Source of the DNA: Selenomonas sp. oral taxon 920
Lineage (GTDB): Bacteria > Bacillota > Negativicutes > Selenomonadales > Selenomonadaceae
DNA: 64,000 nucleotides
Direction: 5' to 3'
Assembly (NCBI RefSeq): GCF_001717585.1
Contig: NZ_CP017042.1
Coordinates: forward strand, 471,501 to 535,500
Positions 12,180-50,538 of the stretch are shown here, in pieces. The translations under genes were made by a program, and so were the position numbers. Position 1 is the stretch's first letter. Each line of letters begins with the position of its first letter. Below the pieces are notes generated by a model that saw only the letters and a program-made list of their open reading frames with translations, searched no databases and was not told where the DNA came from.

Positions 12180-14322
<2,143 letters not shown>

Positions 14323-14326
<4 letters not shown>

Positions 14327-16705: not shown

Positions 16706-16738
16706 TTGGGGCGTGGAGAGGCGAGGAGGAGCATCAAC

Positions 16739-21393: not shown

Positions 21394-21411
21394 GAGAAAA
21401 GGAGACACATC

Positions 21412-23392: not shown

Positions 23393-23462
23393 TGGCTCTG
23401 TTTGAATCAATCGTAAAACACTCAATAGAGAATAAATAGTCAATACGTAAGGAGAATTGCAG

Positions 23463-34203: not shown

Positions 34204-34239
34204 AAAATGCTCTTGTGGATAGAAAGGAGAGAACCGTAT

Positions 34240-35550
34240 ATGTTATCGGTACATCATAAAGGACAGAATATATACAATCTGGCAAAAAAGATATTCCCGT
34301 ATTGCAGAAGTATCACGGGAGGGGGCGTTCGCTGTACGTTTGCGGATTTGAAGGAATATATTGAAACCGGAACCAATGCTCAACTGCATATTCACGAAAT
34401 TCCCTCGGGTACGCCTGTTTTTGACTGGACAGTTCCAAAGGAATGGCGTATTCAGGAGGCCTATATTGAGGATGAGGCGGGAAACCGTATTGTTGATATG
34501 CAGGAAAATAACCTGCATGTTATGGGGTATTCAACCCATGTGGATCGTTGGGTGGATCTGGATGAACTGAAGGAGTATATCTATACAGAGCGGAACCAGC
34601 CCAACGTAATCCCCTATGTTACATCCTACTACAAGGAGCGTTATGGGTTCTGTATGAGTGAATGTCAAAAAGATACACTTGCTCATGGGAAGTATCACAT
34701 GTATATCGACAGTGAGCTGTTTGACGGTGTATTAAATTATGCAGAGGCAGTTATCCCAGGTGAGATGGAGCAGGAGATTTTCTTCTCTACCTACATCTGT
34801 CATCCGTCGATGGCAAACAATGAATGCTCGGGTCCCGCACTTGCGGCGGAGCTGATTCGGTTTGTTGCAAGTATGGAACGGCGCAAATACACTTATCGTT
34901 TTATCTTTATTCCAGAAACGATCGGATCGATCAGCTATATGAGTACGGAAGATCATCTGGCTCATATGAAGGCGACAATGCTAGCCGGCTTCAATCTCTC
35001 TTGTGTCGGTGATGATCGAGCCTATTCCATTGTGGAGACGAGGTATGCTGACACACTTGCGGATCGGGTGCTGAAGAATGTGCTGCGCTACCATGTGGAC
35101 GACTATACGACGTATTCTTTTTTGGAGCGTGGTTCAGATGAACGCCAGTACAATGCGCCTGGTATCGATTTACCTGTTGTATGCTACTGCCGCTCTAAGT
35201 TTGGAGAATATCCTGAGTATCATACATCAGCGGATGATATGACACTGGTCTCCCCAGAGGGCTTTCAGGGCAGTTATGAGGTCATGACGCAAGTCATTCA
35301 GACACTAGAAGCCAACGAAAAATATCAGATGATGGTTCTCGGTGAACCGCAGCTAGGGAAACGCGGTCTGTATCCAACGGTTAGTCAGAAGGGCAGTTAT
35401 GATGGGATCGCGGCAATGGTGGATTTCATTGCCTATGCAGACGGGAAGCATGATCTGATAGAGATCAGTGAGCGAATCGGAGTATCTGTAAATCAATTGA
35501 TCCCTATTATTCGGCGATTAAAAGAGGCTGAATTGCTACGAGTAGTATAA
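34240..35550 (+). CDS. DUF4910/DUF2172 aminopeptidase-like protein with C-terminal winged helix (Cj1295-like)
   Basis: This 436-residue protein resembles the DUF4910 (DUF2172) family, which has an aminopeptidase-like fold. Seen are IFPYCRSITGGGVRCTFADL, STYICHPSMANNECSGPALA with likely metal ligands, and YSFLERGSDERQYNAPGIDL. The last 55 residues (IEISERIGVSVNQLIPIIRR) look like a small winged helix. I recall that Campylobacter jejuni Cj1295, of this type, is required to put di-O-methylglyceric acid on pseudaminic acid of flagellin. A role in acylating the Pse-type sugar here is therefore attractive but inferred. ATG 34240 has AAGGAGAG upstream; an in-frame start at 34207 is weaker. Confidence 0.78.
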   Translation: MLSVHHKGQNIYNLAKKIFPYCRSITGGGVRCTFADLKEYIETGTNAQLHIHEIPSGTPVFDWTVPKEWRIQEAYIEDEAGNRIVDMQENNLHVMGYSTHVDRWVDLDELKEYIYTERNQPNVIPYVTSYYKERYGFCMSECQKDTLAHGKYHMYIDSELFDGVLNYAEAVIPGEMEQEIFFSTYICHPSMANNECSGPALAAELIRFVASMERRKYTYRFIFIPETIGSISYMSTEDHLAHMKATMLAGFNLSCVGDDRAYSIVETRYADTLADRVLKNVLRYHVDDYTTYSFLERGSDERQYNAPGIDLPVVCYCRSKFGEYPEYHTSADDMTLVSPEGFQGSYEVMTQVIQTLEANEKYQMMVLGEPQLGKRGLYPTVSQKGSYDGIAAMVDFIAYADGKHDLIEISERIGVSVNQLIPIIRRLKEAELLRVV

Positions 35551-35579
35551 AAATTGTCTAGGTCATAGGAGCATTCTTT

Positions 35580-37010
35580 ATGCAAGGGGCATTCTCTCAT
35601 ATTTTGCAGCTGTTGGATTCGATTCCACCAGGGCATGTTGTTCTTAATGACAACATTTGTGAAAGAAAATATACCAATGCTGAGTTTTCTGCTGCAGTAA
35701 ATTTCCTGTCCGCCTATATGAAAGAACATATGGCAGATGAGGTTCTTATTTGTGCAGATAACTCTGCAGAACTTGTAATCTTATATTTTGCGGGGCTTTT
35801 TTCAGGGAAAGTGATGGTCCCGATTGATCCAGAAAAAGAAATCGGAGAGATCCAGCGGATCAGGGAGCTGCATTCTGCGGCTTTTTTCTTGGACAATAAT
35901 GCAGTCCAGAAGCTCGTGTCTTTCCCAGTATATGCAGAAAAAAAATCCACGCGGCTTTTATGGGAACGCGTGGATTTTGACAAACTTTTTTTAATCACCT
36001 ATACTTCTGGGAGTACAGGAATGCCGAAGGGCGTTCGACATACGGCGTCGAATTTGTTTCATGCGGCGTATGAGTTTGGCATCATGCTCAAATATGATCA
36101 CCGCACGGTCATGGGACATTGTATGCCGATGACCTATATGGCCGGCATATTGAATACCGTCATCATGCCGTATCTTATGGGCGGCTGTATTGTCGTACTT
36201 CAGCGTTTTTCGATGAAAAGTTCGTTTTCCTTTTGGGATAATATCAAGAAGGGCTCGGTTAATACACTATGGTTATCCCCGACCATGCTTCGCATTGCCA
36301 ACATGATGGATAAGCGCGCCGCGATGAAGGCGTATCTGCATGAGCATAACGTAAGGATCAGTGTCGGAACAGCGCCATTGGATAAAAATCTGCGGGATGA
36401 AGTGGAAGGAAAATATGGCATCCGGCTTTATCAAAGCTATGGACTCTCGGAAACCCTGTTCATTTCGACGGAAATTCCAGAGGAGTATATATCAAGACAT
36501 ACGGTTGGGCGACTTTTACCTAGCGTAAAAATTCGCTGTTCCGAGGATGGTGAACTGCAGATCAGTGTGCCTTGGATGTTTCTAGGGTATACCAATGAAG
36601 ACACGTCCCTCTATATGAACGATGAATTTTATTTGTCAGGTGATCTTGGGCGGTTTGATGACAATGGAAATCTCGTCATTGCAGGACGAAAAAAAGAGGT
36701 CATTGTTAGAGGTGGTTATAATGTCAATCCGAGAGATATTGAAAACACCGTACTCGAACAGGAAGATATCTCTGAGTGCGCCGTTACCTCTGCGTTGATT
36801 CGCGGCGAAGAAATGATTGTATGTTGCTACGTTGCTGCTAGGGAATACGGCATAACAGACATTAACCATATGATTGTAAGCGTACTTGGTAAACACAGCA
36901 AAATAGATTTTCTTGAGCGTATGAGGTCACTTCCCAAGAATCTGAACGGTAAAGTAGATAAACGTGCGATTGCAAACATTGTGGAGGAGCAATATGATAC
37001 TAAAGTTTGA
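35580..37010 (+). CDS. AMP-forming acyl/aminoacyl ligase (ANL superfamily)
   Basis: This 476-residue adenylating enzyme has the P-loop-like LITYTSGSTGMPKGVRHTAS near residue 140, the aromatic motif RLYQSYGLSETLF, YLSGDLGRFDDNG and a C-terminal RKKEVIVRGGYNVNPRDIE, ending in LPKNLNGKVDKRA with the catalytic Lys. It activates a carboxylic acid as AMP ester and loads it on a carrier, probably one of the two acyl carrier proteins in the module. The acid is unknown. It has the size of DltA-like and other stand-alone ligases. It overlaps the next gene by 17 bases. Confidence 0.87.
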   Translation: MQGAFSHILQLLDSIPPGHVVLNDNICERKYTNAEFSAAVNFLSAYMKEHMADEVLICADNSAELVILYFAGLFSGKVMVPIDPEKEIGEIQRIRELHSAAFFLDNNAVQKLVSFPVYAEKKSTRLLWERVDFDKLFLITYTSGSTGMPKGVRHTASNLFHAAYEFGIMLKYDHRTVMGHCMPMTYMAGILNTVIMPYLMGGCIVVLQRFSMKSSFSFWDNIKKGSVNTLWLSPTMLRIANMMDKRAAMKAYLHEHNVRISVGTAPLDKNLRDEVEGKYGIRLYQSYGLSETLFISTEIPEEYISRHTVGRLLPSVKIRCSEDGELQISVPWMFLGYTNEDTSLYMNDEFYLSGDLGRFDDNGNLVIAGRKKEVIVRGGYNVNPRDIENTVLEQEDISECAVTSALIRGEEMIVCCYVAAREYGITDINHMIVSVLGKHSKIDFLERMRSLPKNLNGKVDKRAIANIVEEQYDTKV

Positions 37011-37629
37011 TCATATTTCATTCTCGTGTTCCAGTGAAGTGGAGGCGGCGAGGTATGTTCCCGCACATTACATAGAGGTTTTTCGGGACATAGAACTCAA
37101 TAATATTCCGTGTAAGATGAAGTATTTGAAATTTAAGAGTCCAAAGCATAATATTATTATGCTCGCTCCAACTGCTCCGAATGGCCGAGGCATTCCGATC
37201 GAAATCACCCAATATCCGGAGGTTCTTCCGAACACGAAAACCTTATCATTCAAGGATGATACGATCTTTTGGGAAGTTTCTGACATACCGGCTGCCCACA
37301 GATTTTTTCTTTCTCTTGGAGCAAAAGAGGCAAACAATATGAAACATTTGGTTCTATCTCCGTTTTTGGATAAAAACAAGATTTTTATTCAACTCTCTGA
37401 GAATTCTATGTGTGCGAGAGAGCCTTTTCTGGATATTGCCGGATTTTCATCGATCGGGATCTTTGTCGATAATATCCAAAAACATCTGGCTCAATGTGCT
37501 GCCGCCGGTTTTCCAATCTCGGAGATATCCCCTATCAAAGTACAAGAACGATGGATGAATATTGCATTTGCTGAAGGAGAGAATGGGGAATTGGTAGAAT
37601 TGATTTCTATCAAGAAAGAGAGGGCTTGA
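36994..37629 (+). CDS. VOC-family protein
   Basis: This 211-residue protein has two beta-alpha-beta-beta-beta units of the vicinal-oxygen-chelate (glyoxalase/methylmalonyl-CoA epimerase) superfamily: ILKFDHISFSCSS at the start and SSIGIFVDNIQKHLAQCAAA in the second half, ending IAFAEGENGELVELIS with a probable metal-binding Glu. ATG 36994 follows GGAGGAG and overlaps the ligase gene; an earlier in-frame start lacks support. It may epimerise or isomerise the acyl precursor. Function by context only. Confidence 0.72.
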   Translation: MILKFDHISFSCSSEVEAARYVPAHYIEVFRDIELNNIPCKMKYLKFKSPKHNIIMLAPTAPNGRGIPIEITQYPEVLPNTKTLSFKDDTIFWEVSDIPAAHRFFLSLGAKEANNMKHLVLSPFLDKNKIFIQLSENSMCAREPFLDIAGFSSIGIFVDNIQKHLAQCAAAGFPISEISPIKVQERWMNIAFAEGENGELVELISIKKERA

Positions 37630-37630
37630 T

Positions 37631-38281
37631 ATGAAGATCATCGATCTTAGCTACACCATAGATAAGAACTGTATGACGTGCGGCACACCGTGGCACGAAA
37701 AAGTAAAGCTTGCGCCGCTTGGAACGCTTGCGACGGTGGGAAGAAATACGCATAGCATAACGCTGGGCAGTCATACGGGAACACACATGGATGCCCCACT
37801 GCATTTTTTGGATAGGACGGCAGGAATCGATCAGGTTGATTTGGACAAAATCTGTGGTTCATGCCAGGTTGTCAATATGACACATAAAGGTACGGGAGAT
37901 ATTGTTTCCCTGCAGGATGTAAAACCCCTTGCTGTAACAAAACGGATGCTGTTTCGTTTCGATTGGTTCCGCCACTGGCAGACCACACAGTTTTACAAAG
38001 ATTTTCCGTTCTTTTCGGAAGATGCTGCGCGGTATCTCGTCGATGGCGGTATGCGTGTTCTTGCACTCGATACACCATCTCCCGATACCGGAGCTGCAAT
38101 CGGAAAAATGGACGATTCACCCGTACATAAGATTCTCTTGAAATCGGATGTGACGATTATTGAATATTTGACGAATACGGATCAGCTTGATCTCACGAAG
38201 TCTCATACAATCTTTCCGCTTCCCTTGAAACTAAGGGATTGTGACGGTGCTCCGTCAAGAGTAATTGTGCTGGAGGAGTAA
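37631..38281 (+). CDS. Cyclase-family metal hydrolase (kynurenine formamidase-like)
   Basis: This 216-residue protein has the metal-binding signature GSHTGTHMDAPLHF (HxGTHxDxPxH), the hallmark of the cyclase/formamidase-like family (PF04199), plus VLALDTPSPD. Members hydrolyse amides or esters or close rings on polyketide-like chains. Here it lies one base after the VOC gene and 2 bases before an acyl carrier protein, so it probably acts on the acyl group. Complete length for the family. The exact reaction is unknown. Confidence 0.82.
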   Translation: MKIIDLSYTIDKNCMTCGTPWHEKVKLAPLGTLATVGRNTHSITLGSHTGTHMDAPLHFLDRTAGIDQVDLDKICGSCQVVNMTHKGTGDIVSLQDVKPLAVTKRMLFRFDWFRHWQTTQFYKDFPFFSEDAARYLVDGGMRVLALDTPSPDTGAAIGKMDDSPVHKILLKSDVTIIEYLTNTDQLDLTKSHTIFPLPLKLRDCDGAPSRVIVLEE

Positions 38282-38283
38282 AG

Positions 38284-38529
38284 ATGAACCACTTGAATTG
38301 GGTCATACATTGGTTTGCTGCACATGGAGCTGCCGAGGCTGCAATCAAGGAGCACCTCGACGAGAATTTTTTTGATTTGGGATACATTGACTCGTTTGCC
38401 TTTATTACGTTGATGTCCGACATTGAGGACGAATTTGGCGTATCTTTTGACAACGATCGGTTTCAGGATCGCGCTTTTTCCACTATTCGTGGTCTTGCCA
38501 AGGCTTTGGCAGAGGAAGCAGAAAAATGA
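38284..38529 (+). CDS. Acyl carrier protein 1
   Basis: This 81-residue protein has the acyl carrier fold with LGYIDSFAFITLMSDIEDEF; Ser37 in DSF is the expected phosphopantetheine site. DSF instead of DSL is common in stand-alone carriers of secondary pathways. It is acidic as expected. It overlaps the next acyltransferase-like gene by ATGA, suggesting that the carried acyl group is passed to that enzyme. Loading is likely by the AMP ligase at 35580 or the FkbH-like protein at 40808. Confidence 0.87.
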   Translation: MNHLNWVIHWFAAHGAAEAAIKEHLDENFFDLGYIDSFAFITLMSDIEDEFGVSFDNDRFQDRAFSTIRGLAKALAEEAEK

Positions 38530-39305
38530 GGGGAGATTATACGACTCAAGATATCACAAAAGCGCTTATGGATATTGGGATCGACAAGGGGGATGATGTG
38601 TTCATTCACAGCAACCTCGGATTTTTTGGTGTTTTGGAGGGATGCCGTTCTGCCGATCAGCTTTGTGAGATGTTCCTGACTGTAATTCGATCAGTCATCG
38701 GGGATGAGGGAACTGTTGTTACACCAACATTTTCGTATTCTTACTGCCATAATGAAGTGTATGATCCCTATCAAACAAAGACAAACTGTGGTATGCTGTC
38801 CGAGTATATGAGAAAAACATATCCGAATAATCGCACGTTAGATCCGAATTTCTCCGTATGCGGTGTTGGAAAGCATATGGCAGAGTATATGCAGAGCAAT
38901 ATCCATGAGGCTTTTGGGAAGAGTTGCTTTTGGGATAAATTTATGCAGCATAACGGCAAGATTATCTGCATGAATTTTGATTCCGGATCTACCTTTATAC
39001 ACTTTATCGAGCGGAACAATAATGTTTCTTATAGATATAATAAAGCGTTCAATGGAAAGACAATAATCCATGGTATTGTAAAAAAAGATTATGCCGTACA
39101 TTTTGTGTTTGACGGAGCGGATGATGCCCCGTCTATGGAACGTGTTGATGAACTATGTAAGGCACAGAATGTGTCGAAGCAGGTGAATCTGGGGAAGGGA
39201 ACAATCCTAGCGTTTTCGACACAGAAATACTACGATTTTTTCACAGAATTGCTGAAAGTGCGCCCAAGAGTTTTTTGCGTCAAGGAGTCGCTTCCCGATG
39301 AATAA
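38526..39305 (+). CDS. AAC(3)-family-like N-acyltransferase
   Basis: This 259-residue protein resembles the aminoglycoside 3-N-acetyltransferase fold (antibiotic_NAT): DDVFIHSNLGFFGVLEG corresponds to the VHSSL region, followed by GTVVTPTFSYSYC, NFSVCGVGKHMAEYM and FGKSCFWDKFMQHNGKIICM. Such proteins in glycan loci acylate amino sugars and do not give drug resistance. It is coupled to acyl carrier protein 1, so an ACP-bound acyl donor is likely. It is a candidate for the acylation that PseH normally performs. It overlaps the aldolase gene by 8 bases. Confidence 0.8.
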   Translation: MRGDYTTQDITKALMDIGIDKGDDVFIHSNLGFFGVLEGCRSADQLCEMFLTVIRSVIGDEGTVVTPTFSYSYCHNEVYDPYQTKTNCGMLSEYMRKTYPNNRTLDPNFSVCGVGKHMAEYMQSNIHEAFGKSCFWDKFMQHNGKIICMNFDSGSTFIHFIERNNNVSYRYNKAFNGKTIIHGIVKKDYAVHFVFDGADDAPSMERVDELCKAQNVSKQVNLGKGTILAFSTQKYYDFFTELLKVRPRVFCVKESLPDE

Positions 39306-40347
39306 TAAATTTGAGATCATGGATGTTACCTGCCGTGATGGCAGCTATGTTGTCAAGTTCCAGATGTCCACTGCAGATGAGAAACACATCTGTCAAGGAG
39401 TAGAGGATCTAGGCTTTCACTATACAGAGATCGGCCATGGGATGGGGCTTGGTGCTGACCGTATTAAGAAATGGGAGGCACTTCATAACGATGAAGAGTA
39501 TCTGAAATGTGCGCAAAAGAATCTGCATCGTATCAAATATGGCATATTCTGCATCCCTGGCATTGCCGAACTGGATGATATTAAACTGGCAGCAGATTAT
39601 GGGTGTAGCTTTATTCGTATTGGCTGCAATGTAGAAGACATTGACAAGACGGAAGCCTATATCAAAGAAGCAAAGAGGCTGGGGCTCTATGTTGCATCAA
39701 ACTACATGAAGTCCTATGCATCGTCATTGGAAGAATTTCAGGATGCAGTGCGGAAATCAGAGTCGTGGGGCAGTGATTTGGTCTATATTGTAGATTCTGC
39801 CGGTGGCATGCTGCCGTCCGATGTGGAGCGATATTTCAATGCCATCAAGCAGATCAGCAATATCAAGACAGGCTTTCATGGGCATAATAATATTGGGATG
39901 GCACTCGCAAATAGTTTGTATGCCGTCGAGCTTGGGATTGACTTTATCGATTGCTCCCTGCAGGGACTAGGAAGAAGTGCGGGTAACACATCTCTGGAGG
40001 AACTCACCATATGCCTGCAGAAAATGGGCTGTGATCTCCATGTTGATGAAATAAAAATGCTGTTGCTCAGTAAAAAGTATGTCTATCCTCTGGTGAAGAA
40101 TCGTGGAATCAACCCTATTGATGTAGAATGCGGCATCTCCGGATTTCACAGCAGTTATTTGCAGGAAATTCATAAAGTCTCTGCTGCCTATGAAGTAAAT
40201 CCGCTGATGCTCATTCGAGAGTACTGCAAATATGATCAGGTAGGCATGAATGTCGATACGTTGAAGGAATTGGCCGGGAAACTGCCGCAGGATCATGAGA
40301 GCGGGATGTTGCTTGATTTCTTTAACTACTTTGGTGGTGAACAGTGA
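39298..40347 (+). CDS. DRE-TIM aldolase (HMG-CoA lyase-like / 4-hydroxy-2-oxovalerate aldolase-like)
   Basis: This 349-residue TIM barrel starts EIMDVTCRDGSYVVKF, with the D-x-x-x-R-D-G metal and substrate motif of HMGL-like enzymes, and has VYIVDSAGGMLPSDVERYF and TGFHGHNNIGMALANSL with the HxH metal ligands. These enzymes make or break C-C bonds next to a keto group. Relatives often occur in O-antigen loci with acyl carrier proteins. Here it could build a branched or hydroxylated acyl chain. Its stop overlaps a GTG-started remnant ORF. Confidence 0.82.
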   Translation: MNNKFEIMDVTCRDGSYVVKFQMSTADEKHICQGVEDLGFHYTEIGHGMGLGADRIKKWEALHNDEEYLKCAQKNLHRIKYGIFCIPGIAELDDIKLAADYGCSFIRIGCNVEDIDKTEAYIKEAKRLGLYVASNYMKSYASSLEEFQDAVRKSESWGSDLVYIVDSAGGMLPSDVERYFNAIKQISNIKTGFHGHNNIGMALANSLYAVELGIDFIDCSLQGLGRSAGNTSLEELTICLQKMGCDLHVDEIKMLLLSKKYVYPLVKNRGINPIDVECGISGFHSSYLQEIHKVSAAYEVNPLMLIREYCKYDQVGMNVDTLKELAGKLPQDHESGMLLDFFNYFGGEQ

Positions 40348-40496
40348 TTTATATTCCAAATAGTCCGTTTCTGATCGTGAAGAGGATGTTCCATGCGGGT
40401 AAGACAAGGTATCGTGGACTCAGGAAGAACCTGCTCCAATACTATCTGCTCTTTGCGTTGGCGAATCTCGCTACGTGTTTGAAGGCGGGAAGGTAG
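40344..40496 (+). pseudogene. C-terminal remnant of an IS transposase, fused to a short leader
   Basis: From about 40377 the frame encodes KRMFHAGKTRYRGLRKN and then LLQYYLLFALANL, the typical end of IS5-like DDE transposases, with a stop TAG at 40494-40496. The rest of the transposase is absent. In the same frame a GTG at 40344, overlapping the aldolase stop and preceded by GGTGGTGAA, starts the leader IYIPNSPFLI, which could be the first residues of a lost glycan gene into which the element inserted. So a cluster gene may have been disrupted here. No catalytic residues remain; the sequence is not functional. Confidence 0.65.
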
Positions 40497-40807
40497 AGTG
40501 CGTTTTGTATGATAATGGGATAAGTGCGCCCATGTTCCCGAATTTCTCGTCCAAACGGAAAATTCGGGGAAGGAAAGGGAGCAACGGGGCGGTGTTGTAC
40601 TCTGTTTTTCACTGCAATTTGTGAAAATTGTGTCTGCGGATGTGATTATTCACTATGTTTCACTGATTCTCTAGCAGAACTGGTGATGTTACTGGCACAA
40701 AACCTGTGAAAATGTGCATAGGGGATGTGTTTTTGTACCTATAGAACTAGAATTTTCAAGGTTTGACATATGTTTTTGATATGCGAAGTTTGAGTGAGGA
40801 AAATAAA
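40497..40807. other. Non-coding scar of the insertion element, with a hairpin
   Basis: No gene is evident in this 311-base stretch. It holds an inverted repeat, CCCGAATTT (40537-40545) and AAATTCGGG (40560-40568), with a 14-base loop, and two loosely similar segments around 40620 and 40707 (TGTGAAAAT-GTG followed by GGATGTG or GGGATGTG). These look like the remaining end of the mobile element. A TTGACA at about 40762 has no good -10 partner, so no promoter is called. Confidence 0.45.
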
Positions 40808-42613
40808 ATGAAGCGTATATTGACCTATCCGGTAGATTCTGTCAAGTTGTTGAAGAAGCGCAAAAAAATAAAGAAGATGCTGATGGAGAAGCTTGAAGGA
40901 GAAATGTGTGTTGAAAAACGCATTGCAATCCTCGGGGGGTCCACAACACATGATGTTCGTGATATGTTAGAGTTGTTTCTCCTAGATGCAGGTATCATAC
41001 CTTCGTTTTATGAGTCGGAGTATAATCAGTATTGGCAAGATGTTATATTTGATAATCCTGCACTATCGGAGTTTCAGCCGGATATCATCTATATTCACAC
41101 AAGTTCGCGCAATATCCATAGGTTTCCTTCACCTAAAGAGCCTTTGATAGATATTGATGCACTTGTGGATGAAATATATCGACCCTATGTACAACTGTGG
41201 GAAAAAATAGCAGCTGACTATCACTGCCCTTTGATCCAGAATAATTTTGAGCTGCCATTTTATCGACTCCTTGGGAATAATGATTTTTCTGATCCTCATG
41301 GTCGTGTGCGTTTTGTTAATACACTGAATGAAAAGTTTTGTCAATACGCACAATCCCATGAGAGTTTCTATATTCATGATATTCACTATATGGCTTCCTG
41401 TTATGGACTGCAGCAATGGGCAGATCCATACGCATGGCATATGTATAAATATGCTTGCGCCGTTGAAGCCATCCCGGAACTTGCCTACAATCTGTCAAAT
41501 ATGATAAAATCGCTTTACGGGAAGTCACAAAAAGCTCTTGTCCTTGATCTTGATAATACATTATGGGGCGGCATTGTCGGTGATGATGGTGCTGATAATA
41601 TTGAAATTGGACAAGAGACATCTATGGGGCAGCTTTATAGTGAGTTCCAAACTTATATTAAGGAATACAAGGAGCGAGGTATTCTCCTTGCAATTAACTC
41701 TAAGAATGATATAGAAAATGCACTGGCAGGGTTGAATCGACCGGATAGCACTTTGAGACCGGAGGACTTTCTTGTAATTAAAGCAAATTGGGAAGATAAG
41801 GATTGTAATATTCGGCAGATAGCACAGGAATTAAATATAGGAACAGATACACTTGTTTTCGTAGACGATAATCCCGTTGAGCGTGATATTGTGAGGACTC
41901 GGGTTTCAGATGTCAAAATTCCGGAGGTTGATGATCCTGCGCAGTTTATCAGTGTATTGGATCGTTCCGGCTATTTTGAGGCAATGCAGCTGTCTGCAGA
42001 AGATGTGCAGCGTACAGAAATGTATCAAGAAAACATTTCTCGAAAAAAATCGCAGGAAAGCTACGCGGATTATTCGGACTATCTTCGTTCTCTTCAAATG
42101 AAAGCGGAGATAGCACCCTTTTCTCCCGTCTATATGTCTCGCATTGCACAGCTTACAAATAAAAGCAATCAGTTCAACTTGACAACAAAGCGATGCAGTC
42201 AGGCGGATATGGAAGGATATGTGAATAATCCCGAATATATCACGCTATATGGGAAATTAGAGGATCGATTTGGCGATAATGGTGTCGTGTCTGTCGTGTT
42301 TGGTCATGTGGATCAAGGAGATGCCACATTATTCCATATTGACTTGTGGCTGATGAGCTGCCGTGTACTGAAGAGGGATATGGAAATCGCAATGATGGAT
42401 GAACTTGTCGGAAAATGTCGTGAACGTGGTGTTCGATGTCTCCGTGGCTATTATTATCCTACGGCTAAAAATGGTATGGTGAAGGGCTTTTATGGTCAGC
42501 AAGGATTCACAAAAATCCAAGAGGACGAGAACGGAAACACTGTTTGGGAATTTTTGATTACAAACGACTATAAGAACAGAAATCAGGTGATTGAGGTTCA
42601 TGCAGACAGTTAG
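40808..42613 (+). CDS. FkbH-like HAD-IIIC family protein
   Basis: This 601-residue protein has an N-terminal part with ILGGSTTHDVRDMLELFLL, a central HAD domain with LVLDLDNTLWGGIVGDDGA (near residue 245) and VFVDDNPVERDIVR, and a C-terminal GNAT-like end with KGFYGQQGF. FkbH enzymes of tetronate and FK520-type pathways take 1,3-bisphosphoglycerate and load a glyceryl unit on an acyl carrier protein. This suggests a glyceryl- or glycerate-derived acyl group here. ATG 40808 has GAGG 8 bases ahead; the frame also extends to 40763. The stop overlaps the next gene. Confidence 0.86.
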   Translation: MKRILTYPVDSVKLLKKRKKIKKMLMEKLEGEMCVEKRIAILGGSTTHDVRDMLELFLLDAGIIPSFYESEYNQYWQDVIFDNPALSEFQPDIIYIHTSSRNIHRFPSPKEPLIDIDALVDEIYRPYVQLWEKIAADYHCPLIQNNFELPFYRLLGNNDFSDPHGRVRFVNTLNEKFCQYAQSHESFYIHDIHYMASCYGLQQWADPYAWHMYKYACAVEAIPELAYNLSNMIKSLYGKSQKALVLDLDNTLWGGIVGDDGADNIEIGQETSMGQLYSEFQTYIKEYKERGILLAINSKNDIENALAGLNRPDSTLRPEDFLVIKANWEDKDCNIRQIAQELNIGTDTLVFVDDNPVERDIVRTRVSDVKIPEVDDPAQFISVLDRSGYFEAMQLSAEDVQRTEMYQENISRKKSQESYADYSDYLRSLQMKAEIAPFSPVYMSRIAQLTNKSNQFNLTTKRCSQADMEGYVNNPEYITLYGKLEDRFGDNGVVSVVFGHVDQGDATLFHIDLWLMSCRVLKRDMEIAMMDELVGKCRERGVRCLRGYYYPTAKNGMVKGFYGQQGFTKIQEDENGNTVWEFLITNDYKNRNQVIEVHADS

Positions 42614-43445
42614 GCTTCTCAATGGCGTTTTGATGCCGCAGATTGGAATGGGTACATGGCAGATCAATGACAGAGAGGTCTTAGCGAATATCATTGAGCG
42701 CGGATATGACATGGGGTATCGTCTTATTGATACCGCTGCAGCATATGGCAATGAAATTGGGATTGGAAAGGCTCTGGAGAAGTTATCTGTACCACGAGGA
42801 GAGATGTTCCTCTCGGATAAGGTTTGGAATTCCTGTCGCGGTTATGAAAAGGTTCGTGAAGCCTGTAAACGCTCTATGAAAAAACTGAAAACGGACTATT
42901 TGGATCTCTATCTGGTGCACTGGCCTGCTTCTCCTAAGTTGTATTCAGACTGGGAGGCGCAGAATGCAAGCACGTGGCGTGGCATGGAGTCTCTATATCG
43001 GGACGGATATGTGCGCGCGATCGGTGTATGCAATTTTAAGCCGCATCATTTAGAGGCTTTGGGAAACACTGCGGAAATTCAGCCTATGGTGAATCAAATT
43101 GAGGTTCACCCCGGTATGATGCAAAGTGATACGACGACATTTTGTGCGGAAAAAAATATCTGTATCGAGGCCAGCAGTCCGTTGGGGAATGGTCAGATCC
43201 TTTCACACGAGTTGATCAGCACGATAGCTAAATCGCATGATAAGACACCTGCACAGATCTGTTTACGGTATGCTGTGGAACAAGGTTTTGTAGTGATCCC
43301 TAAAACGAGCAGTTCTGTTCGTTTGGCAGAGAACATGGATATATTCGACTTTTCCCTGACCCCGGACGAAAAGTCGAGCTTGAGTAAGATGCCCTATTGC
43401 GGTGGTGTCGGCATTGATCCGGATGAGGTGACTGAATTTGGATGA
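42600..43445 (+). CDS. Aldo/keto reductase (diketogluconate reductase-like)
   Basis: This 281-residue enzyme has the tetrad Asp and Tyr in RLIDTAAAYGNEIGIGKAL, Lys in LSDKVWN and His in LYLVHWPASP, plus GVCNFKPHHLEAL and VVIPKTSSSVRLAENM for NADPH binding. It belongs to the AKR5 type and differs from the aldo/keto reductase at 14323. It overlaps the FkbH-like gene and the next transketolase gene, so all are coupled. It may reduce the keto group of a transketolase product or acyl precursor. Confidence 0.87.
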   Translation: MQTVRLLNGVLMPQIGMGTWQINDREVLANIIERGYDMGYRLIDTAAAYGNEIGIGKALEKLSVPRGEMFLSDKVWNSCRGYEKVREACKRSMKKLKTDYLDLYLVHWPASPKLYSDWEAQNASTWRGMESLYRDGYVRAIGVCNFKPHHLEALGNTAEIQPMVNQIEVHPGMMQSDTTTFCAEKNICIEASSPLGNGQILSHELISTIAKSHDKTPAQICLRYAVEQGFVVIPKTSSSVRLAENMDIFDFSLTPDEKSSLSKMPYCGGVGIDPDEVTEFG

Positions 43446-44268
43446 GAAGACAACAGCTACATTGAGGATGCTGCGCAAACAAATTGCTGTTACAGGATAT
43501 CGTGGCGGGATGGCTCATCTTGCATCTTCATATTCTTGTCTTGAGATTTTATATACTTTGTATGCAGGGGGAATCCTGCGCTTGAATCGTGATGACCCTA
43601 TGTGGGCAGATCGGGACCGTCTGATTTTGAGCAAGGGACATGCAGGTTTGGCACTCTATGCTATTCTGACACATATGGGGTTTATGAGAGAGGATGAATT
43701 TTCGTCATATCTTCAGCTCAAAGGCTGCATTGGTGGTGAGCCGTGTATGCGTGATAGCAAGTGGGTAGAGGCTACAACGGGTTCTCTTGGACACGGACTC
43801 TCGTTTGCTGCCGGAATTGCTATGGCTCTTCGGCTTAATCACAGTCTCGCTAAAGTGTATGTTGTCCTTGGTGATGGTGAATGCGAGGAGGGGGCTGTAT
43901 GGGGAGCGGCAATGTCCGCAGCAGCGCATCAATTGGATAATCTGGTTGTGATTTTGGATTGCAATGAGATTCAGAAAATGGATCGAATTGACCGCATTAT
44001 TGGTGCACCCCGGTGGATGGAGAAATGGACATCCTTTGGCTGGAGTGTTGAAGAGATGGATGGTCATGATATAACGGTGATGAGAGACCATTTTTCTCGT
44101 GAAGGTGTGAAAGGGAAGCCTCGATTTATTCTGGCACATACGATCAAGGGGAAAGGCGTATCCATTATGGAACAGAATCCCAACTGGCATTTTAAGCTGC
44201 CCAATCGCAAAGAGAGGAAGGTCTTTCAGGAAGAATTAGGCATTTCTGAAGCAGAGTGGGAGGGCTGA
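43438..44268 (+). CDS. Transketolase-like N-terminal subunit
   Basis: This 276-residue protein is the thiamine-diphosphate-binding half of a split transketolase. Seen are RLILSKGHAGLALYAIL, TGSLGHGLSFAAGIAMALRL and VVLGDGECEEGAVWGAA with the GDG-E metal and ThDP motif, and HTIKGKGVSIMEQNP. The start is TTG 43438 after GAGGTGA. The second half is encoded 3 bases downstream. A housekeeping transketolase is usually one chain or a pair away from glycan genes, so this pair probably transfers a two-carbon unit in a dedicated pathway. Confidence 0.9.
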   Translation: MDEKTTATLRMLRKQIAVTGYRGGMAHLASSYSCLEILYTLYAGGILRLNRDDPMWADRDRLILSKGHAGLALYAILTHMGFMREDEFSSYLQLKGCIGGEPCMRDSKWVEATTGSLGHGLSFAAGIAMALRLNHSLAKVYVVLGDGECEEGAVWGAAMSAAAHQLDNLVVILDCNEIQKMDRIDRIIGAPRWMEKWTSFGWSVEEMDGHDITVMRDHFSREGVKGKPRFILAHTIKGKGVSIMEQNPNWHFKLPNRKERKVFQEELGISEAEWEG

Positions 44269-44271
44269 TTC

Positions 44272-45186
44272 ATGCAGAGCGCCTATATGGGGAAACTAAT
44301 GGAACTTGCAGAGCGTGATCGGGAAGTCATTCACCTTCTTGCGGACAGTGGTACAGGTTACGATGAGATGTTTCGTCATAATTTTCCAGATCAGATTTGC
44401 AATTTTGGAATTAACGAGGAGCATATGGTTGCCGCTGCTGCAGGGATGGCTACGGTCGGAAAAATTCCGTTTGTCTATACTGCAGGGGCATTTCTTGCAT
44501 ATCGTTCTTTAGAGTTTATCCGCGATGATGTGTGTTTTCAAAATTTGAATGTTAAAATCACAGGAATGGGGAGCGGTCTTTCATGGAGTTCTTTGGGACC
44601 GACGCATCATACAACGGAGGATGTTGCTGTGCTGCGCGCACTGCCAAATCTCATGATTCTGTCGCCGGCAACGCCGTATCAGGTATCGAAGTGTGTGGAG
44701 GCGGCTTATCAACATATTGGCCCTGTCTATACCCGCATTGGAATGAATCATGAAAAAGAATTTTTCGATGAAACATATGATTTTCAAGTCGGTAAAAATG
44801 ATGTTTTGCAGGAAGGGGGGGATCTCTGTATCTTTGTGACAGGGAGTATCTTAGAGGAGGTATACGAAGCTGCGCAGCTTTTAAAGGCGGAAGGCGTTCA
44901 TGCAAGAATTGTTTATGTCCATACGCTGAAACCGTTCGATGAGGAGAATATTTTGTCTATGGTGCAGGACGTGCAGATGTTTATTACCGTTGAGGAGCAT
45001 AATATATTGGGCGGCTTGGGAAGTATTATTTCCGAGGTGCTGTCTGCACATGGAATTGGGATGCGGCTGCATCGAATTGGATTGCACGATTGCTTTGCAT
45101 CGGGCTACGGAACGCATAAAAACGTTAGGATAGAAAATCAGTTGGACGCGAGGAGTATTTTCCGAGAAATCAAGGAAGTGCTATAA
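44272..45186 (+). CDS. Transketolase-like C-terminal subunit
   Basis: This 304-residue partner has the pyrimidine-binding domain with FGINEEHMVAAAAGMATVG (catalytic Glu) and the C-terminal domain with VEEHNILGGLGSIISEVL. It is typical of the second chain of split transketolases or DXS-like enzymes. A run of seven G (44815-44821, in EGGD) is a possible slippage site. It lies one base before the MaoC gene. Reaction and substrates are unknown. Confidence 0.9.
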   Translation: MQSAYMGKLMELAERDREVIHLLADSGTGYDEMFRHNFPDQICNFGINEEHMVAAAAGMATVGKIPFVYTAGAFLAYRSLEFIRDDVCFQNLNVKITGMGSGLSWSSLGPTHHTTEDVAVLRALPNLMILSPATPYQVSKCVEAAYQHIGPVYTRIGMNHEKEFFDETYDFQVGKNDVLQEGGDLCIFVTGSILEEVYEAAQLLKAEGVHARIVYVHTLKPFDEENILSMVQDVQMFITVEEHNILGGLGSIISEVLSAHGIGMRLHRIGLHDCFASGYGTHKNVRIENQLDARSIFREIKEVL

Positions 45187-45187
45187 A

Positions 45188-45616
45188 ATGAAAAAATATA
45201 CATTTTCAGAGATATATGTTGGTCTGCGGGAAACCTTTGAGCAGCAGATCAGCATAGAAATGGAGAATGCCTTTCGTGAGATGTCGGGGGACAATAACCC
45301 TTTACACAGAGATGATGTTTATGCGCGTGAGATTAGTGCAGGAAAGTATCCGGTGCATGTCTCCTTTGGTATGTTGACGGCATCTTTATATTCTACATTA
45401 GCAGGGATGTATCTGCCCGGTGCATATAGCCTTATTCACAGTTTGGAAAACGTATCCTTTTTGAACCCTGTATTTGTCGGAGATGTACTTTTTGTAGAGG
45501 GAGAGGTGACTGATAAGGATGAGAGCCTGCACCTGATTCGTGTGAATGCCTGTATTCACAATCAGGAAAAAAGGAAGGTCTCTAAAGCTAAGATGAAGAT
45601 TATAGTTTTGAAATAG
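45188..45616 (+). CDS. MaoC-like dehydratase/hydratase (hot-dog fold)
   Basis: This 142-residue protein has the MaoC signature MSGDNNPLHRDDVYAREI, with the catalytic Asp-His pair of R-specific enoyl hydratases, and VHVSFGMLTASLYSTLAGM. It should add or remove water at the beta position of an acyl-CoA or acyl-ACP. The next gene, 23 bases away, is an acyl carrier protein, the likely carrier of its substrate. Supports synthesis of a 3-hydroxyacyl or enoyl group. Confidence 0.87.
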   Translation: MKKYTFSEIYVGLRETFEQQISIEMENAFREMSGDNNPLHRDDVYAREISAGKYPVHVSFGMLTASLYSTLAGMYLPGAYSLIHSLENVSFLNPVFVGDVLFVEGEVTDKDESLHLIRVNACIHNQEKRKVSKAKMKIIVLK

Positions 45617-45639
45617 TACATAGAAAGAGGACGTATAAC

Positions 45640-45882
45640 ATGACCAGAGAAGAAGTTTATGAGAGATTGCAGAATGTTTTTCGTGATGTATTCGATGACG
45701 AGAGTATTGTTTTGCATGATGAAACCACAGCGAATGACATAGAGGACTGGGATTCCTTTGAGCATATCAACCTGGTTGTGTCTGTGCAGGATGAATTTTC
45801 CTTTAAGATTCCCATGGGCAAAGTCGTAACAATGAAAAATGTGGGTGAAATGGTAGATCTCATCATGGAGTTGGGGGAGTAG
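45640..45882 (+). CDS. Acyl carrier protein 2
   Basis: This 80-residue protein has the carrier motif IEDWDSFEHINLVVSVQDEF with Ser39 as the expected phosphopantetheine site. DWDSF is common in carriers of DltC-like and secondary pathways. It is separate in sequence from acyl carrier protein 1. It lies directly upstream of an MBOAT gene (13 bases), an arrangement that recalls dltC next to dltB. AAAGAGGAC precedes the start. Confidence 0.88.
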   Translation: MTREEVYERLQNVFRDVFDDESIVLHDETTANDIEDWDSFEHINLVVSVQDEFSFKIPMGKVVTMKNVGEMVDLIMELGE

Positions 45883-45895
45883 GTGATCCGGCAGA

Positions 45896-47404
45896 ATGAA
45901 TTTGATGAGCGGGGAATTTTTTCTGTTTTTGTGCCTTACTCTCGTTTTATACTATCTTTTTCCTAGGGCTCAGAAATATATCCTGCTGACAGCCAGCTTG
46001 ATGTTCTTTTTGACAGCCTCTGCCGTTTCAGAGCCTCTTATGTGTTTGTTGATGGCGTATATTTTTTTTGTTACATATTTAGGTGCGATTGCCATCGAAA
46101 AAACTGAGGGCTGGAAAAAGGATGTTTATTCACTAGTCTCTATTATAGGACTTGTCGCGACACTGTTTATTCTTAAATATGCATTTAATATGGGCGAATT
46201 GTTTTTATCGCTCTTACAGATGGATACGAATCTTTCCTGGTTGGATTTCGTTCCCATTATGGGACTGTCCTATTTTGTGCTGTCAGCCATAGGTTATCTG
46301 CTGGATGTCCGTTGGCAGACGTGTTCAGCGGAGCGTAATCCGACGACAGTGGCATTGTTTCTTTATTATTTTCCCCAGCTAATATCAGGACCTGTAACAC
46401 GATTTACTGCCATGAGGGAGCAGTTCGCAAGAAGATTCAGCCTTCAGTATGAGAATATTGAGTATGGTCTGCGTCGTATGTTGTGGGGATACTTTAAGAA
46501 GCTAGTAATCTCCGAGCGATTCGCTATGGTGGTGACAACTGTTTATGCGAGTCCGGAATCTTATGGTGGAATGGATTTTGTGTTGGCGACGTTGTGCTAT
46601 GCGATACAACTTTATACAGACTTCTCTGGTTGTATGGATATTGTACTGGGTGCTTCGGCACTATTTGGTGTTCGTTTGCCAGAGAATTTTCGTGCGCCTT
46701 TTTTTTCGCGATCATTACAGGAATTTTGGCAGCGTTGGCATATTACATTGGGACTTTGGTTCAAGGACTACGTGATGTACCCAATCCAGATATCTGCACC
46801 GATGGTGGCACTTGGACGTATGTGTAAGAAAAGATGGGGGAAGAAGGCAGGAAAGAAGATTCCGTTCTATCTCTCCATGATAGTACTTTGGTTTCTGATC
46901 GGTGTTTGGCATGGATGTACTGCATATTACTTTGTCGCAGCTGCGTTGGTTCCGTGCACCTTGTTGATACTGAGTGATGGCATTTCAGCGTTGACTGTAA
47001 AGTGGCCGAGTTGCTTGCGTCTTGAATCGGACAATATCTTTGTTGCATATATACAAAGAGTACGAACTTTGTTGTTGATTTGTATTTGTTGGGTGTTTGT
47101 GTGTGCTGGCAGTGTTTCTGCGGGAATCTCGGTTTTTGTTAATATGGTTTCTAATTTTTCGGCATCACATTTTTATGATATATTGAATACGACGGGAATC
47201 GATGGAAAAAAAGCTGTTTTTATGTTTCTTTGCCTCATGCTCCTCGTATTTGCAGAGTATCTGGAAAATAAGGGGAGCTCTATTCAGAGGTTTATGGATG
47301 GACGGCATTATTTATTCCGCATCGGGGCAATTTATCTCGTGGTTTTTCTCATCTTGGGAACAGGCATGATTGGTAAATCGACCTTTATTTATTTTCAATT
47401 CTGA
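45896..47404 (+). CDS. MBOAT-family O-acyltransferase (AlgI/DltB-like)
   Basis: This 502-residue polytopic membrane protein has the MBOAT hallmarks YFPQLISGPVTRF, LYTDFSGCMDIVLGASALFG, PFFSRSLQEFWQRWHITLGL with the conserved Asn/Asp-His region, and LIGVWHGCTAYYF with the catalytic His. AlgI acetylates alginate and DltB passes D-alanine from DltC to outside. Its direct placement after an acyl carrier protein and before an SGNH-like partner favours carrying an acyl group across the membrane to the glycan. The acyl group is not identified. Confidence 0.88.
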   Translation: MNLMSGEFFLFLCLTLVLYYLFPRAQKYILLTASLMFFLTASAVSEPLMCLLMAYIFFVTYLGAIAIEKTEGWKKDVYSLVSIIGLVATLFILKYAFNMGELFLSLLQMDTNLSWLDFVPIMGLSYFVLSAIGYLLDVRWQTCSAERNPTTVALFLYYFPQLISGPVTRFTAMREQFARRFSLQYENIEYGLRRMLWGYFKKLVISERFAMVVTTVYASPESYGGMDFVLATLCYAIQLYTDFSGCMDIVLGASALFGVRLPENFRAPFFSRSLQEFWQRWHITLGLWFKDYVMYPIQISAPMVALGRMCKKRWGKKAGKKIPFYLSMIVLWFLIGVWHGCTAYYFVAAALVPCTLLILSDGISALTVKWPSCLRLESDNIFVAYIQRVRTLLLICICWVFVCAGSVSAGISVFVNMVSNFSASHFYDILNTTGIDGKKAVFMFLCLMLLVFAEYLENKGSSIQRFMDGRHYLFRIGAIYLVVFLILGTGMIGKSTFIYFQF

Positions 47405-47411
47405 GGAGTGA

Positions 47412-48497
47412 ATGATGCGTTTTCAAAACAAGTGGCTGAGATTTCTAGTGCTTTTGCCGATTCCTCTGATTGTTGCTGGTATCAACTATGTTGTAGATCC
47501 ATCGGCCTTGTACCATGATAACACGGAGGCTATGGCACGTTCTATGGCGGCAGGAAATAAAACGTGGTTTGCACATAGTAATGTTAATGAACGTGAAGTG
47601 AAGCGACATTTGATTGAAGCTATGCCAAGGGAAGTGGATTGCATTGCTGTTGGTCCAAGTCTAATTATGGGAGTACGATCTGATACTGTTGGTACGCAGA
47701 GTTTTTATAATTTGAGCGAGTCAGGCGCAGATTTTTATGATATTTTAGCGCAGTTTGCATTGCTGGACTTGCATGAGATTACATATCATCGCGTTATATT
47801 TTGCGTGGATTCTTATTTCTTTGATGAGAAGCTGTATCGTACGCTTACGAGAAGTCAAGGGTTAAAGCCCTATGCACAATATATGATTGATACATTGGAG
47901 CAAAAAGATCCAATCCGACCGCACGGCCCCGCAAACTCGTGGAAAGAACCTGTGAAATCATTGCTATCTCCGTCTTATTTTCAAGCATCAATTGCAGCCC
48001 TGAAAAAAGAAGGAGGACATTCCCTTATTGGTGCACGCTGGGGAATTGTTAATGAAAACTATGAGGGGATATATTATATGCCGGATGGCAGTATCGTCTA
48101 TGCAGTTGAGGCGCAGAATAGAACGGGCGACTATGTGACAAAAGATGCTGAAAACTATAATATAGAATATCAATTTTCGAAGGGAGGGCATATCGATCCC
48201 TACAGTAAGGAGATTTTTGAGAAACTTATTCAGTATCTATTGAAAAAAAATATTAGCGTTGAATTGTTTTTGTGCCCTGTTGCGCCGTCTTTGTGGGAGC
48301 GGATTAACTCTGATGATTATCCTTCGATACCAGAATTAGAGATGTTTGCTCATGAAATGGCTCAAGAGTACAATTTGAGAATTACAGGAACATATAATCC
48401 CTATTGTTTGAGAATGTCAGATGAAGATTTTTATGATGCACGACATGTTAGGCACGATCTTTTGACGAAATACTTTGACTTTAGGCCGTATAAATGA
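47412..48497 (+). CDS. Membrane-anchored SGNH-like acyltransfer partner (AlgJ/DltD-like)
   Basis: This 361-residue protein has an N-terminal signal anchor (FLVLLPIPLIVAGINYVV, about residues 11-28) and an exported domain. CIAVGPSLIMGVRSDTV resembles the SGNH block I with Ser, and DARHVRHDLLTKYF near the end provides the Asp-x-x-His. Such proteins pair with MBOAT enzymes and transfer the acyl group to the polymer on the outer side (AlgJ/AlgX, DltD). It starts 8 bases after the MBOAT gene. Family placement is by pattern and context. Confidence 0.7.
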   Translation: MMRFQNKWLRFLVLLPIPLIVAGINYVVDPSALYHDNTEAMARSMAAGNKTWFAHSNVNEREVKRHLIEAMPREVDCIAVGPSLIMGVRSDTVGTQSFYNLSESGADFYDILAQFALLDLHEITYHRVIFCVDSYFFDEKLYRTLTRSQGLKPYAQYMIDTLEQKDPIRPHGPANSWKEPVKSLLSPSYFQASIAALKKEGGHSLIGARWGIVNENYEGIYYMPDGSIVYAVEAQNRTGDYVTKDAENYNIEYQFSKGGHIDPYSKEIFEKLIQYLLKKNISVELFLCPVAPSLWERINSDDYPSIPELEMFAHEMAQEYNLRITGTYNPYCLRMSDEDFYDARHVRHDLLTKYFDFRPYK

Positions 48498-50495: not shown

Positions 50496-50538
50496 TTCAA
50501 GATGCTGCTGGCGTTTACTCTGTAAGGATGTGAGAAGA

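Follow-up and report, generated by a model that had tools for sequence, protein, structure and literature searches.

Two probable acyl-carrier cassettes adjoining in a surface-glycan locus of Selenomonas sp. oral taxon 920

A surface-glycan locus of Selenomonas sp. oral taxon 920 contains a run of fifteen genes concerned with acyl groups, and it raises the question of whether these genes form one pathway or more than one. The locus lies in a window of 64 kb (the whole stretch of DNA analysed, positions 471,501 to 535,500 of contig NZ_CP017042.1; all positions below are those of the window), taken from a host genome of 2.44 Mb in 2 contigs that is 99.82% complete. The run spans 34207-48497 with every gene on the plus strand, and its gene calls were confirmed as real; the start of the first gene was corrected from 34240 to 34207 and that of the VOC gene to 36994, and the FkbH gene most likely starts at 40808. 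The original prediction, made from the sequence alone, was of a single pathway based on acyl carrier proteins (ACPs) that decorates a pseudaminic acid (Pse)-type nonulosonic acid. Our results suggest instead that the run probably consists of two independent acyl-carrier cassettes that adjoin in the locus, judging from the gene content of related loci: module A (34207-40347) and module C (40808-48497). Each half is found again as a set in other genomes, and this recurrence is more than chance.

Fifteen genes and the seam between them

The family names in the original prediction were borne out by profile searches against Pfam and NCBIfam, in the case of the VOC protein by fold and in that of the SGNH protein by motif conservation, with the second carrier protein (ACP2) matched only below the profile cut-offs. 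Module A opens with a DUF4910/DUF2172/HTH_47 aminopeptidase-like protein of the Cj1295 type (34207-35550; PF16254, 314.9 bits), which matches PDB entry 3k9t (E 2.6e-103) and in which H199, N204, E237, D311, E312 and H339 are invariant among 18 aligned sequences; the link to Campylobacter jejuni Cj1295 was rightly drawn (PMC3068675). It is followed by an AMP-forming acyl ligase (35580-37010; PF00501, 149.9 bits), whose C-terminal lysine, K458, is kept in 13/13 aligned ligases. The next protein, of two modules (36994-37629), matches nothing in Pfam or NCBIfam at E 0.001 and, by sequence, nothing in the PDB at E 1; its AlphaFold2 (AF2) model (pLDDT 88.5) confirms it, at the level of predicted fold, as a member of the VOC superfamily with paired beta-alpha-beta-beta-beta modules, and matches the fold of GLOD4 (3zi1; Z 15.7, root-mean-square deviation 3.0, 187 residues aligned). 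Four of its residues, H8, H53, E71 and E203, are invariant in 11 sequences (numbering of window:36991-37626), and the protein is probably metal-dependent.

The remaining genes of module A encode a hydrolase of the cyclase/kynurenine-formamidase family (37631-38281; PF04199, 87.6 bits) with the motif HTGTHMDAPLH, in which H48, T51, D54, A55, P56 and H58 are invariant and H52 nearly so among 12 sequences; the first carrier protein, ACP1, with an IDSF carrier motif (38284-38529; PF00550, 40.4 bits); an AAC(3)-like N-acyltransferase (38526-39305; PF02522, Antibiotic_NAT, 92.7 bits); and a DmpG-type DRE-TIM aldolase (39298-40347; HMGL-like, 119.3 bits; NF006049, 256.6 bits over the cut-off of 229). 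T156, E162 and R170 of the AAC(3)-like enzyme are invariant in 24/24 sequences and H159 is found in 23/24; a role in drug resistance was rejected, since the protein scores 49.4 bits against the curated NCBIfam AAC(3) cut-off of 270 and the Pfam match alone holds. The aldolase falls below the equivalog TIGR03217 for 4-hydroxy-2-oxovalerate aldolase (231.5 bits, cut-off 286). In all nine type A aldolases (9/9, that of the window included) R13, D14, Y17, H194 and H196 are invariant, with Tyr at the RDG-S-(H/Y) position; D14, H194 and H196 are the metal ligands of the family. Aldolases of the BphI type have a His, the catalytic base, at the position after RDG-S, and because Tyr17 replaces it here the reaction may differ from theirs. 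A catabolic 4-hydroxy-2-oxovalerate pathway was also rejected for module A, as the run has no acylating aldehyde dehydrogenase and the aldolase has Tyr for His.

Within 34207-40347, and likewise within 40763-48497, neighbouring genes overlap or are separated by at most 29 bases. The single coupled run that had been described thus holds for the strand of all fifteen genes, but it is broken by a seam of about 460 bases (40348-40807) between the end of the aldolase gene and the likely FkbH start. The seam carries a C-terminal relic of an IS5-family transposase (40344-40493, plus strand), recognized by tblastn against plasmid IS5-family transposases (best rows 53-66% identity over 35-43 aa, best E 5e-7); its match to DDE_Tnp_1_6 (E 0.029) is under the cut-off. 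The seam stretch has no second copy in its own genome at E 1e-5. A promoter and terminator scan gave 44 promoter-like sites, where 35.0 were expected, and 22 terminator-like sites, where 11.6 were expected, and was not used.

Module C comprises eight genes, here compared with those of two other genomes of the family Selenomonadaceae (L073 and L074). The FkbH (HAD-IIIC) protein (40808-42613; TIGR01686, 278.7 bits over the cut-off of 146.65) is 72% identical to both; its start was set by comparison with homologues of 601 aa, the longest open reading frame (ORF) beginning at 40763. Next come an aldo/keto reductase (AKR; 42591-43445; PF00248, 168 bits; 61-66% identity), the N-terminal half (43438-44268; PF00456, 116.8 bits; 66-68%) and the C-terminal half (44272-45186; PF02779, 98.1 bits, and PF02780, 78.8 bits; 69-72%) of a split transketolase, and a MaoC dehydratase/hydratase with the motif SGDNNPLH (45188-45616; PF01575, 45.4 bits; 61-63%). 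ACP2, with a WDSF motif (45640-45882), is 88-89% identical to its two counterparts and scores under the cut-offs of Pfam (19.8, cut-off 20.8) and of the acyl carrier protein model NF009104 (43.4, cut-off 70). The module ends with a DltB-like MBOAT membrane O-acyltransferase (45896-47404; PF03062, 49.3 bits), which is the only MBOAT match of the genome at E 1e-5 and lies below the DltB cut-off (TIGR04091, 143.8 bits, cut-off 375), and with an SGNH-type protein (47412-48497). The latter has no family match, DltD included, in the Pfam and NCBIfam profile searches; G81-x-S83 and D342-x-x-H345, the SGNH pattern, are invariant in 16 aligned sequences (the window and 15 homologues), and a DltD/AlgX-like role is proposed for it.

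Separate recurrence of the two halves

When 84,980 species genomes were scanned with an alignment of the window AAC(3) and one relative, 23 loci emerged, which were typed by tblastn and clustering; because the scan used two peptide patterns, this number is a lower bound. The loci are mostly contigs of metagenome-assembled genomes (MAGs), and their type labels come from gene content and the tree from AAC(3) alone. Module A was found in 11 of the 23 (L011-L021), in Clostridia, Bacteroidota and Micrarchaeota MAGs. The ligase, the cyclase, ACP1 and AAC(3) are each present in 11/11 of these type A loci, VOC in 10/11 (L013 has a fragment), DUF4910 in 9/11 and the aldolase in 8/11; FkbH occurs in 1/11 (L020 only). 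Over all AAC(3) loci DUF4910 is present in 18/23. A methyltransferase gene adjoins the VOC gene in six type A loci (L014-L017, L019 and L020), and methyltransferase pieces follow the aldolase in L013. The sequence clusters of the cyclase, of VOC and of the aldolase were found in 0/12 of the other AAC(3) loci (three of these contigs are shorter than 7 kb), and FkbH, ACP, AAC(3) and DUF4910 lie close together in 6/12 (L023, L024, L026, L027, L030 and L032). Among 398 genomes of the phylum VOC was found in 1 and AAC(3) in 2 (own included), and plasmid searches with VOC and AAC(3) gave no match.

In the AAC(3) tree a branch (96/96) sets off all type A rows, L022 (a 3-kb contig) falling among them, and the window groups with the four Clostridia loci (99/98); the six FkbH rows are separate from type A and occupy two positions in the tree as drawn. 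Among the carriers, ACP1 (IDSF) groups with those of type A loci and ACP2 (WDSF) with those of FkbH loci. Moreover, ACP1 and AAC(3) form one ORF of 341-361 residues in L014, L016, L017 and L020 (4/11 type A loci), and these fusions are strong evidence that AAC(3) takes its acyl group from ACP1.

The search for module C covered 189 genomes of the order Selenomonadales, 17 of which (own included) have an FkbH match; the FkbH neighbourhoods of 15 of the 16 others were read, the sixteenth lying on a 3.2-kb contig. L073 and L074 have all eight module C genes in the same order, at 52-89% identity, and neither genome has an aldolase match at 1e-40 or an AAC(3) match at 1e-20. Across the order such matches were found in 3/189 genomes for the aldolase and 3/189 for AAC(3), the own genome being in both counts. 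Only the genomes of L073 and L074 have a split transketolase of the module C form (66-68% identical); three further genomes bear split transketolase homologues of 43-46% identity at E 1e-70. In 14/15 neighbourhoods the gene run with FkbH also contains an ACP2 homologue, at most about 3.1 kb away. FkbH is accompanied by MaoC and SDR in 7/15 (L075, L077, L078, L085, L086, L087 and L089; FkbH is broken by stops in L089), and three of these seven FkbH-MaoC-SDR-ACP neighbourhoods also have an MBOAT. This unit of FkbH, MaoC, SDR and ACP, recurrent in the order, is a candidate lactyl-ACP cassette; in the form found in the window an AKR takes the place of SDR and the split transketolase is added. In 6/15 neighbourhoods FkbH lies with a small VOC protein; L079 and L082 add a methyltransferase of one kind, and L088 a homologue of the methyltransferase at 19122 of the window.

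Several loci seen in these searches deserve separate mention. Two of the type A loci (L015 and L019) are in Micrarchaeota MAGs, which could reflect either transfer into DPANN archaea or binning errors. After DUF4910 and AAC(3), L029 (8634-20000) has LuxE and LuxC, two pairs of split transketolase genes, an ACP-like ORF and a weak match to an AMP ligase, and this may be another donor cassette for the DUF4910/AAC(3) pair. In L033 (8143-14780) genes that look KAS III-like by eye flank an AAC(3)-like gene, and an AMP-ligase match and an ACP-like ORF lie further out; the donor might be supplied in a third way there. At L005 (7322-12942), in a further genome of the family, a CDP-sugar-type locus groups together an aldolase carrying RDGSH, a dehydrogenase that is putatively DmpF-like (by eye), a split transketolase and a thiamine diphosphate (TPP) enzyme (by eye); a branched-sugar pathway is possible there.

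Proposed reactions, acceptors and alternatives

The claim of a Pse-type sugar locus is well supported by matches over the NCBIfam cut-offs, all on the plus strand. PseB and PseC are encoded at 12183-14326 (TIGR03589, 549.3 bits, and TIGR03588, 553.9 bits, both over the cut-off), and PseI at 22367-23392 (TIGR03586, 502.7 bits over 340.25). At 15953-19098 lie a PseF-like cytidylyltransferase (PF02348 match alone, no NCBIfam match at 1e-20), a class III aminotransferase (PF00202) and PseG (TIGR03590, 292.8 bits over 153.55). PseH (TIGR03585) has 0 matches in the own genome at E 1e-5, and a second PseH model, built from the sequences of four relatives, has none in the 64-kb window. Cj1295 is needed for the di-O-methylglyceroyl group at N5 of Pse; its authors suggest that it cleaves the C5 acetamido group, and its product is CMP-7-acetamido-5-(2,3-di-O-methylglyceroyl)amino-nonulosonic acid (PMC3068675).

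For both modules we infer the reactions, the acceptors and the acyl groups from the families present. In module A the DUF4910 protein would act as an N-deacylase that first takes off an N-acetyl group and frees the sugar amine (N5, by analogy with Cj1295). The aldolase would build an acid, probably from pyruvate and an aldehyde, the ligase would adenylate it and load it onto ACP1, the VOC protein and the cyclase-family hydrolase would remodel it there, and the AAC(3)-like enzyme would move it onto the amine of the Pse-type sugar. The aldolase, VOC protein and cyclase are compatible with several acids. As PseH was not detected, AAC(3) may act at the PseH position as well. In module C FkbH would take a glyceryl group, probably from 1,3-bisphosphoglycerate, to ACP2. 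There MaoC, AKR and the split transketolase could modify it, after which the DltB-like MBOAT and the SGNH protein together would transfer the acyl group, outside the membrane, to a hydroxyl group on a surface polymer; the module would thus be a Dlt-like system with FkbH in the place of DltA. We favour, at a probability of roughly 0.55, this two-cassette explanation, in which module A re-acylates the amine of the Pse-type sugar and module C performs Dlt-like surface O-acylation fed by FkbH.

A more specific extension is offered tentatively. The O-acylation operon fed by FkbH may be new in kind, with lactyl as the acyl group in the commoner FkbH/MaoC/SDR/ACP form: the glyceryl group would be dehydrated by MaoC to a pyruvyl form and then reduced. 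In the window form the split transketolase could extend the pyruvyl-like intermediate by a two-carbon unit ahead of its reduction by AKR and so give a branched acyl group, for example 2,3,4-trihydroxy-2-methylbutanoyl (+132.042 Da as an O-ester). Module A would, in the same tentative extension, be an undescribed sugar N-acylation pathway based on a carrier protein and common to Bacteria and Micrarchaeota MAGs.

A number of observations weigh against the two-cassette explanation. The absence of PseH rests on profile searches, in which weak GNAT hits are unspecific (18/21 genomes and 12/14 controls, with 1/21 over the cut-off), and two hexapeptide transferases (30898 and 31519) could acylate the PseH position. 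The second PseH model finds a PseH-like GNAT near AAC(3) in L011 (fused to PseI), L015 and L033, and weakly matches the C-terminal ends of PseG in L024 and L027; because of these five loci AAC(3) is no simple replacement of PseH everywhere. FkbH near AAC(3) and DUF4910 in the six loci named above makes glyceryl transfer by AAC(3) likely elsewhere, and L020, in which module A is followed by FkbH, ACP2, VOC, SGNH and MBOAT, indicates that the modules can travel together; this L020 set, its SGNH-like gene included, is a distant parallel to module C. An MBOAT is present in 6/15 FkbH neighbourhoods and lacking in 9/15, several of which are short contigs. In L073 and L074 module C lies among housekeeping-looking genes (by eye), so its acceptor need not be this glycan. 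Four of the 11 type A loci, all Saprospiraceae, have no Pse genes within 10 kb, so the acceptor of module A may differ there. As to the position served, a formyltransferase-like gene lies near PseF, PseG and PseI in L013 and L029 (with a Pfam match for that of L013), and in some relatives N7 seems to be served by a PseH-like or formyl transferase, with AAC(3) and DUF4910 acting elsewhere. This would fit the Cj1295 product and the C5 cleavage proposed for it. There are two options for the window: AAC(3) acts at both positions, or one of the hexapeptide transferases acts at N7.

Among the alternatives, there is a minor chance that module A acylates another amino sugar of the glycan and not the Pse-type sugar. 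The Saprospiraceae loci and the further sugar genes of the window would fit such an acceptor. On the other side, Pse-type genes are found within 10 kb in 7/11 type A loci (two of the seven by weaker matches, L018 PseI at 29% and L019 PseB at 43%), PseH is undetected in the genome, and DUF4910 sits in Pse loci, with Cj1295 acting on Pse.

It is improbable that FkbH, transketolase, MaoC and the rest form one pathway for a glyceryl-derived acyl group that AAC(3) puts on Pse. One strand and one run of genes, the six loci with FkbH close to ACP, AAC(3) and DUF4910, the L020 arrangement, and the split transketolase near AAC(3) and DUF4910 in L029 and L030 speak for it; however, the AAC(3) and ACP1 of the window belong to a class mostly without FkbH, module C is complete in two genomes without an AAC(3) or aldolase match, and the IS5 relic marks the seam. 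Because the modules recur separately, each has its own class of ACP and the relic lies between them, we reject the single pathway, and the glyceryl group of FkbH is probably not the cargo of AAC(3) on Pse here. What was predicted is thus upheld in part: the idea of an ACP-carried acyl group on a nonulosonic acid is supported, but not one pathway with all the parts (module A is without FkbH in 10/11 loci and module C without aldolase and AAC(3) in two genomes). A single pathway for a glyceryl-decorated Pse is likewise supported only in part, as FkbH and ACP2 go here with the MBOAT and not with AAC(3).

Butirosin- and vicenistatin-type pathways put an aminoacyl protecting group on an ACP-bound acid, and DUF4910 might remove such a group from the acid on ACP1 after the ATP-grasp enzyme (21412) had added it. 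DUF4910 does have a peptidase-like relative of known structure, and an ATP-grasp gene is present in the locus and in L012; with ATP-grasp in 1/23 AAC(3) loci against DUF4910 in 18/23, and with Cj1295 acting on a sugar whose acyl group contains no amino acid, this is quite improbable. That both cassettes make a free small molecule and not glycan parts is highly improbable, for although FkbH, ACP and MBOAT genes are mentioned in natural-product papers too, no polyketide or peptide synthase is found among the annotated window genes, the setting is among glycan genes, and the pairing of MBOAT and SGNH in module C is that of surface-acylation systems.

Related systems and neighbouring genes

Neither exact gene set, that of module A or that of module C, was found described in searches of open-licence papers, which agrees with the original claim that no pathway with the full set is known; partial sets are, however, described in flagellin glycosylation islands (PMC7874193, PMC4875605). 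These Aeromonas and Enterobacteriaceae islands contain, from sequence, genes for ACP, AMP synthetase or CoA ligase, reductase, LuxE and LuxC (PMC7874193, PMC4875605). They resemble the window in their Pse genes, in the AKR and class III aminotransferase of Aeromonas (group I) clusters, as at 14323 and 16706, and in the lack of pseH from some clusters; they differ in that the accessible text names no aldolase, VOC, cyclase or AAC(3), and 'fkbH' is absent from both main texts (PMC7874193, PMC4875605). The Cj1295 locus is alike in having a DUF4910-type protein in a Pse locus and in the replacement of an N-acetyl group of Pse by another acyl group (PMC3068675). The window also has an AAC(3)-like transferase with its own ACP (38284-39305), a further likeness to the Cj1295 system. 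Besides Cj1296/7, the neighbours of Cj1295 presumably include AAC(3)-like, ACP, FkbH-like and AMP-ligase genes. Here, in contrast, AAC(3) and ACP1 accompany VOC, cyclase and aldolase, FkbH is part of a cassette that can be separated from them, and the own genome gave no match to PF01973 (DUF115/Maf), a single profile with control hits in four archaea only. Flagellin as a Maf target is less likely given this single-profile result.

Module C is similar to the dlt operon for teichoic-acid D-alanylation in having a DltB-like MBOAT, a small carrier protein and an SGNH-type protein adjacent. It differs in that there is no DltA among the eight module C genes (window, L073 and L074), with FkbH, MaoC, AKR and the split transketolase instead, and in that all four MBOATs tested (window, L073, L075 and L018) are under the DltB cut-off. 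The formation of glyceryl-ACP by FkbH is described for polyketides, and FkbH with a stand-alone ACP in module C resembles the FkbH/ACP loading of tetronate and methoxymalonyl pathways; unlike these, module C lacks a FabH-like tetronate enzyme or polyketide synthase and ends in MBOAT and SGNH (PMC7489565). Acyl groups on nonulosonic acids and surface polymers differ between strains, and few pathways for them are known. The tetronate genes of Vibrio cholerae O1 perosamine are another case of ACP-dependent acyl building for a sugar amine, with different enzymes. If the two-cassette explanation is true, the locus offers two portable cassettes with defined parts lists: DUF4910 and AAC(3) would be a deacylase/transferase pair with swappable ACP-bound donors, and module C a Dlt-like system without DltA that runs on a glycolytic intermediate. 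Functions would also follow for DUF4910, for a VOC protein without a family match and for an aldolase with an altered active-site position.

Upstream of the run lie GDP-fucose-type genes (Gmd over the cut-off), a gene for a PglK-like ABC exporter (298.2 bits, below the cut-off) and one for a LIC12162-family transferase of surface glycans (23457-25331, plus strand; TIGR04331, 435.4 bits over 225). Inside the Pse cluster lie an AKR (14323-15243) and the class III aminotransferase (16706-18031); in L024 and L027 homologues of both accompany Pse genes, as does one of the aminotransferase in L015, and the pair possibly brings about a further amination of the sugar. At 20692-22344 a metallophosphoesterase gene is paired with an ATP-grasp gene, and this pair recurs in L012 and L079. 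Downstream of the run, at 49779-53712, a polymerase-beta-type nucleotidyltransferase with a substrate-binding domain is followed by a protein of 1060 aa with a P-loop (by eye), and the two may form a defence or toxin-antitoxin unit.

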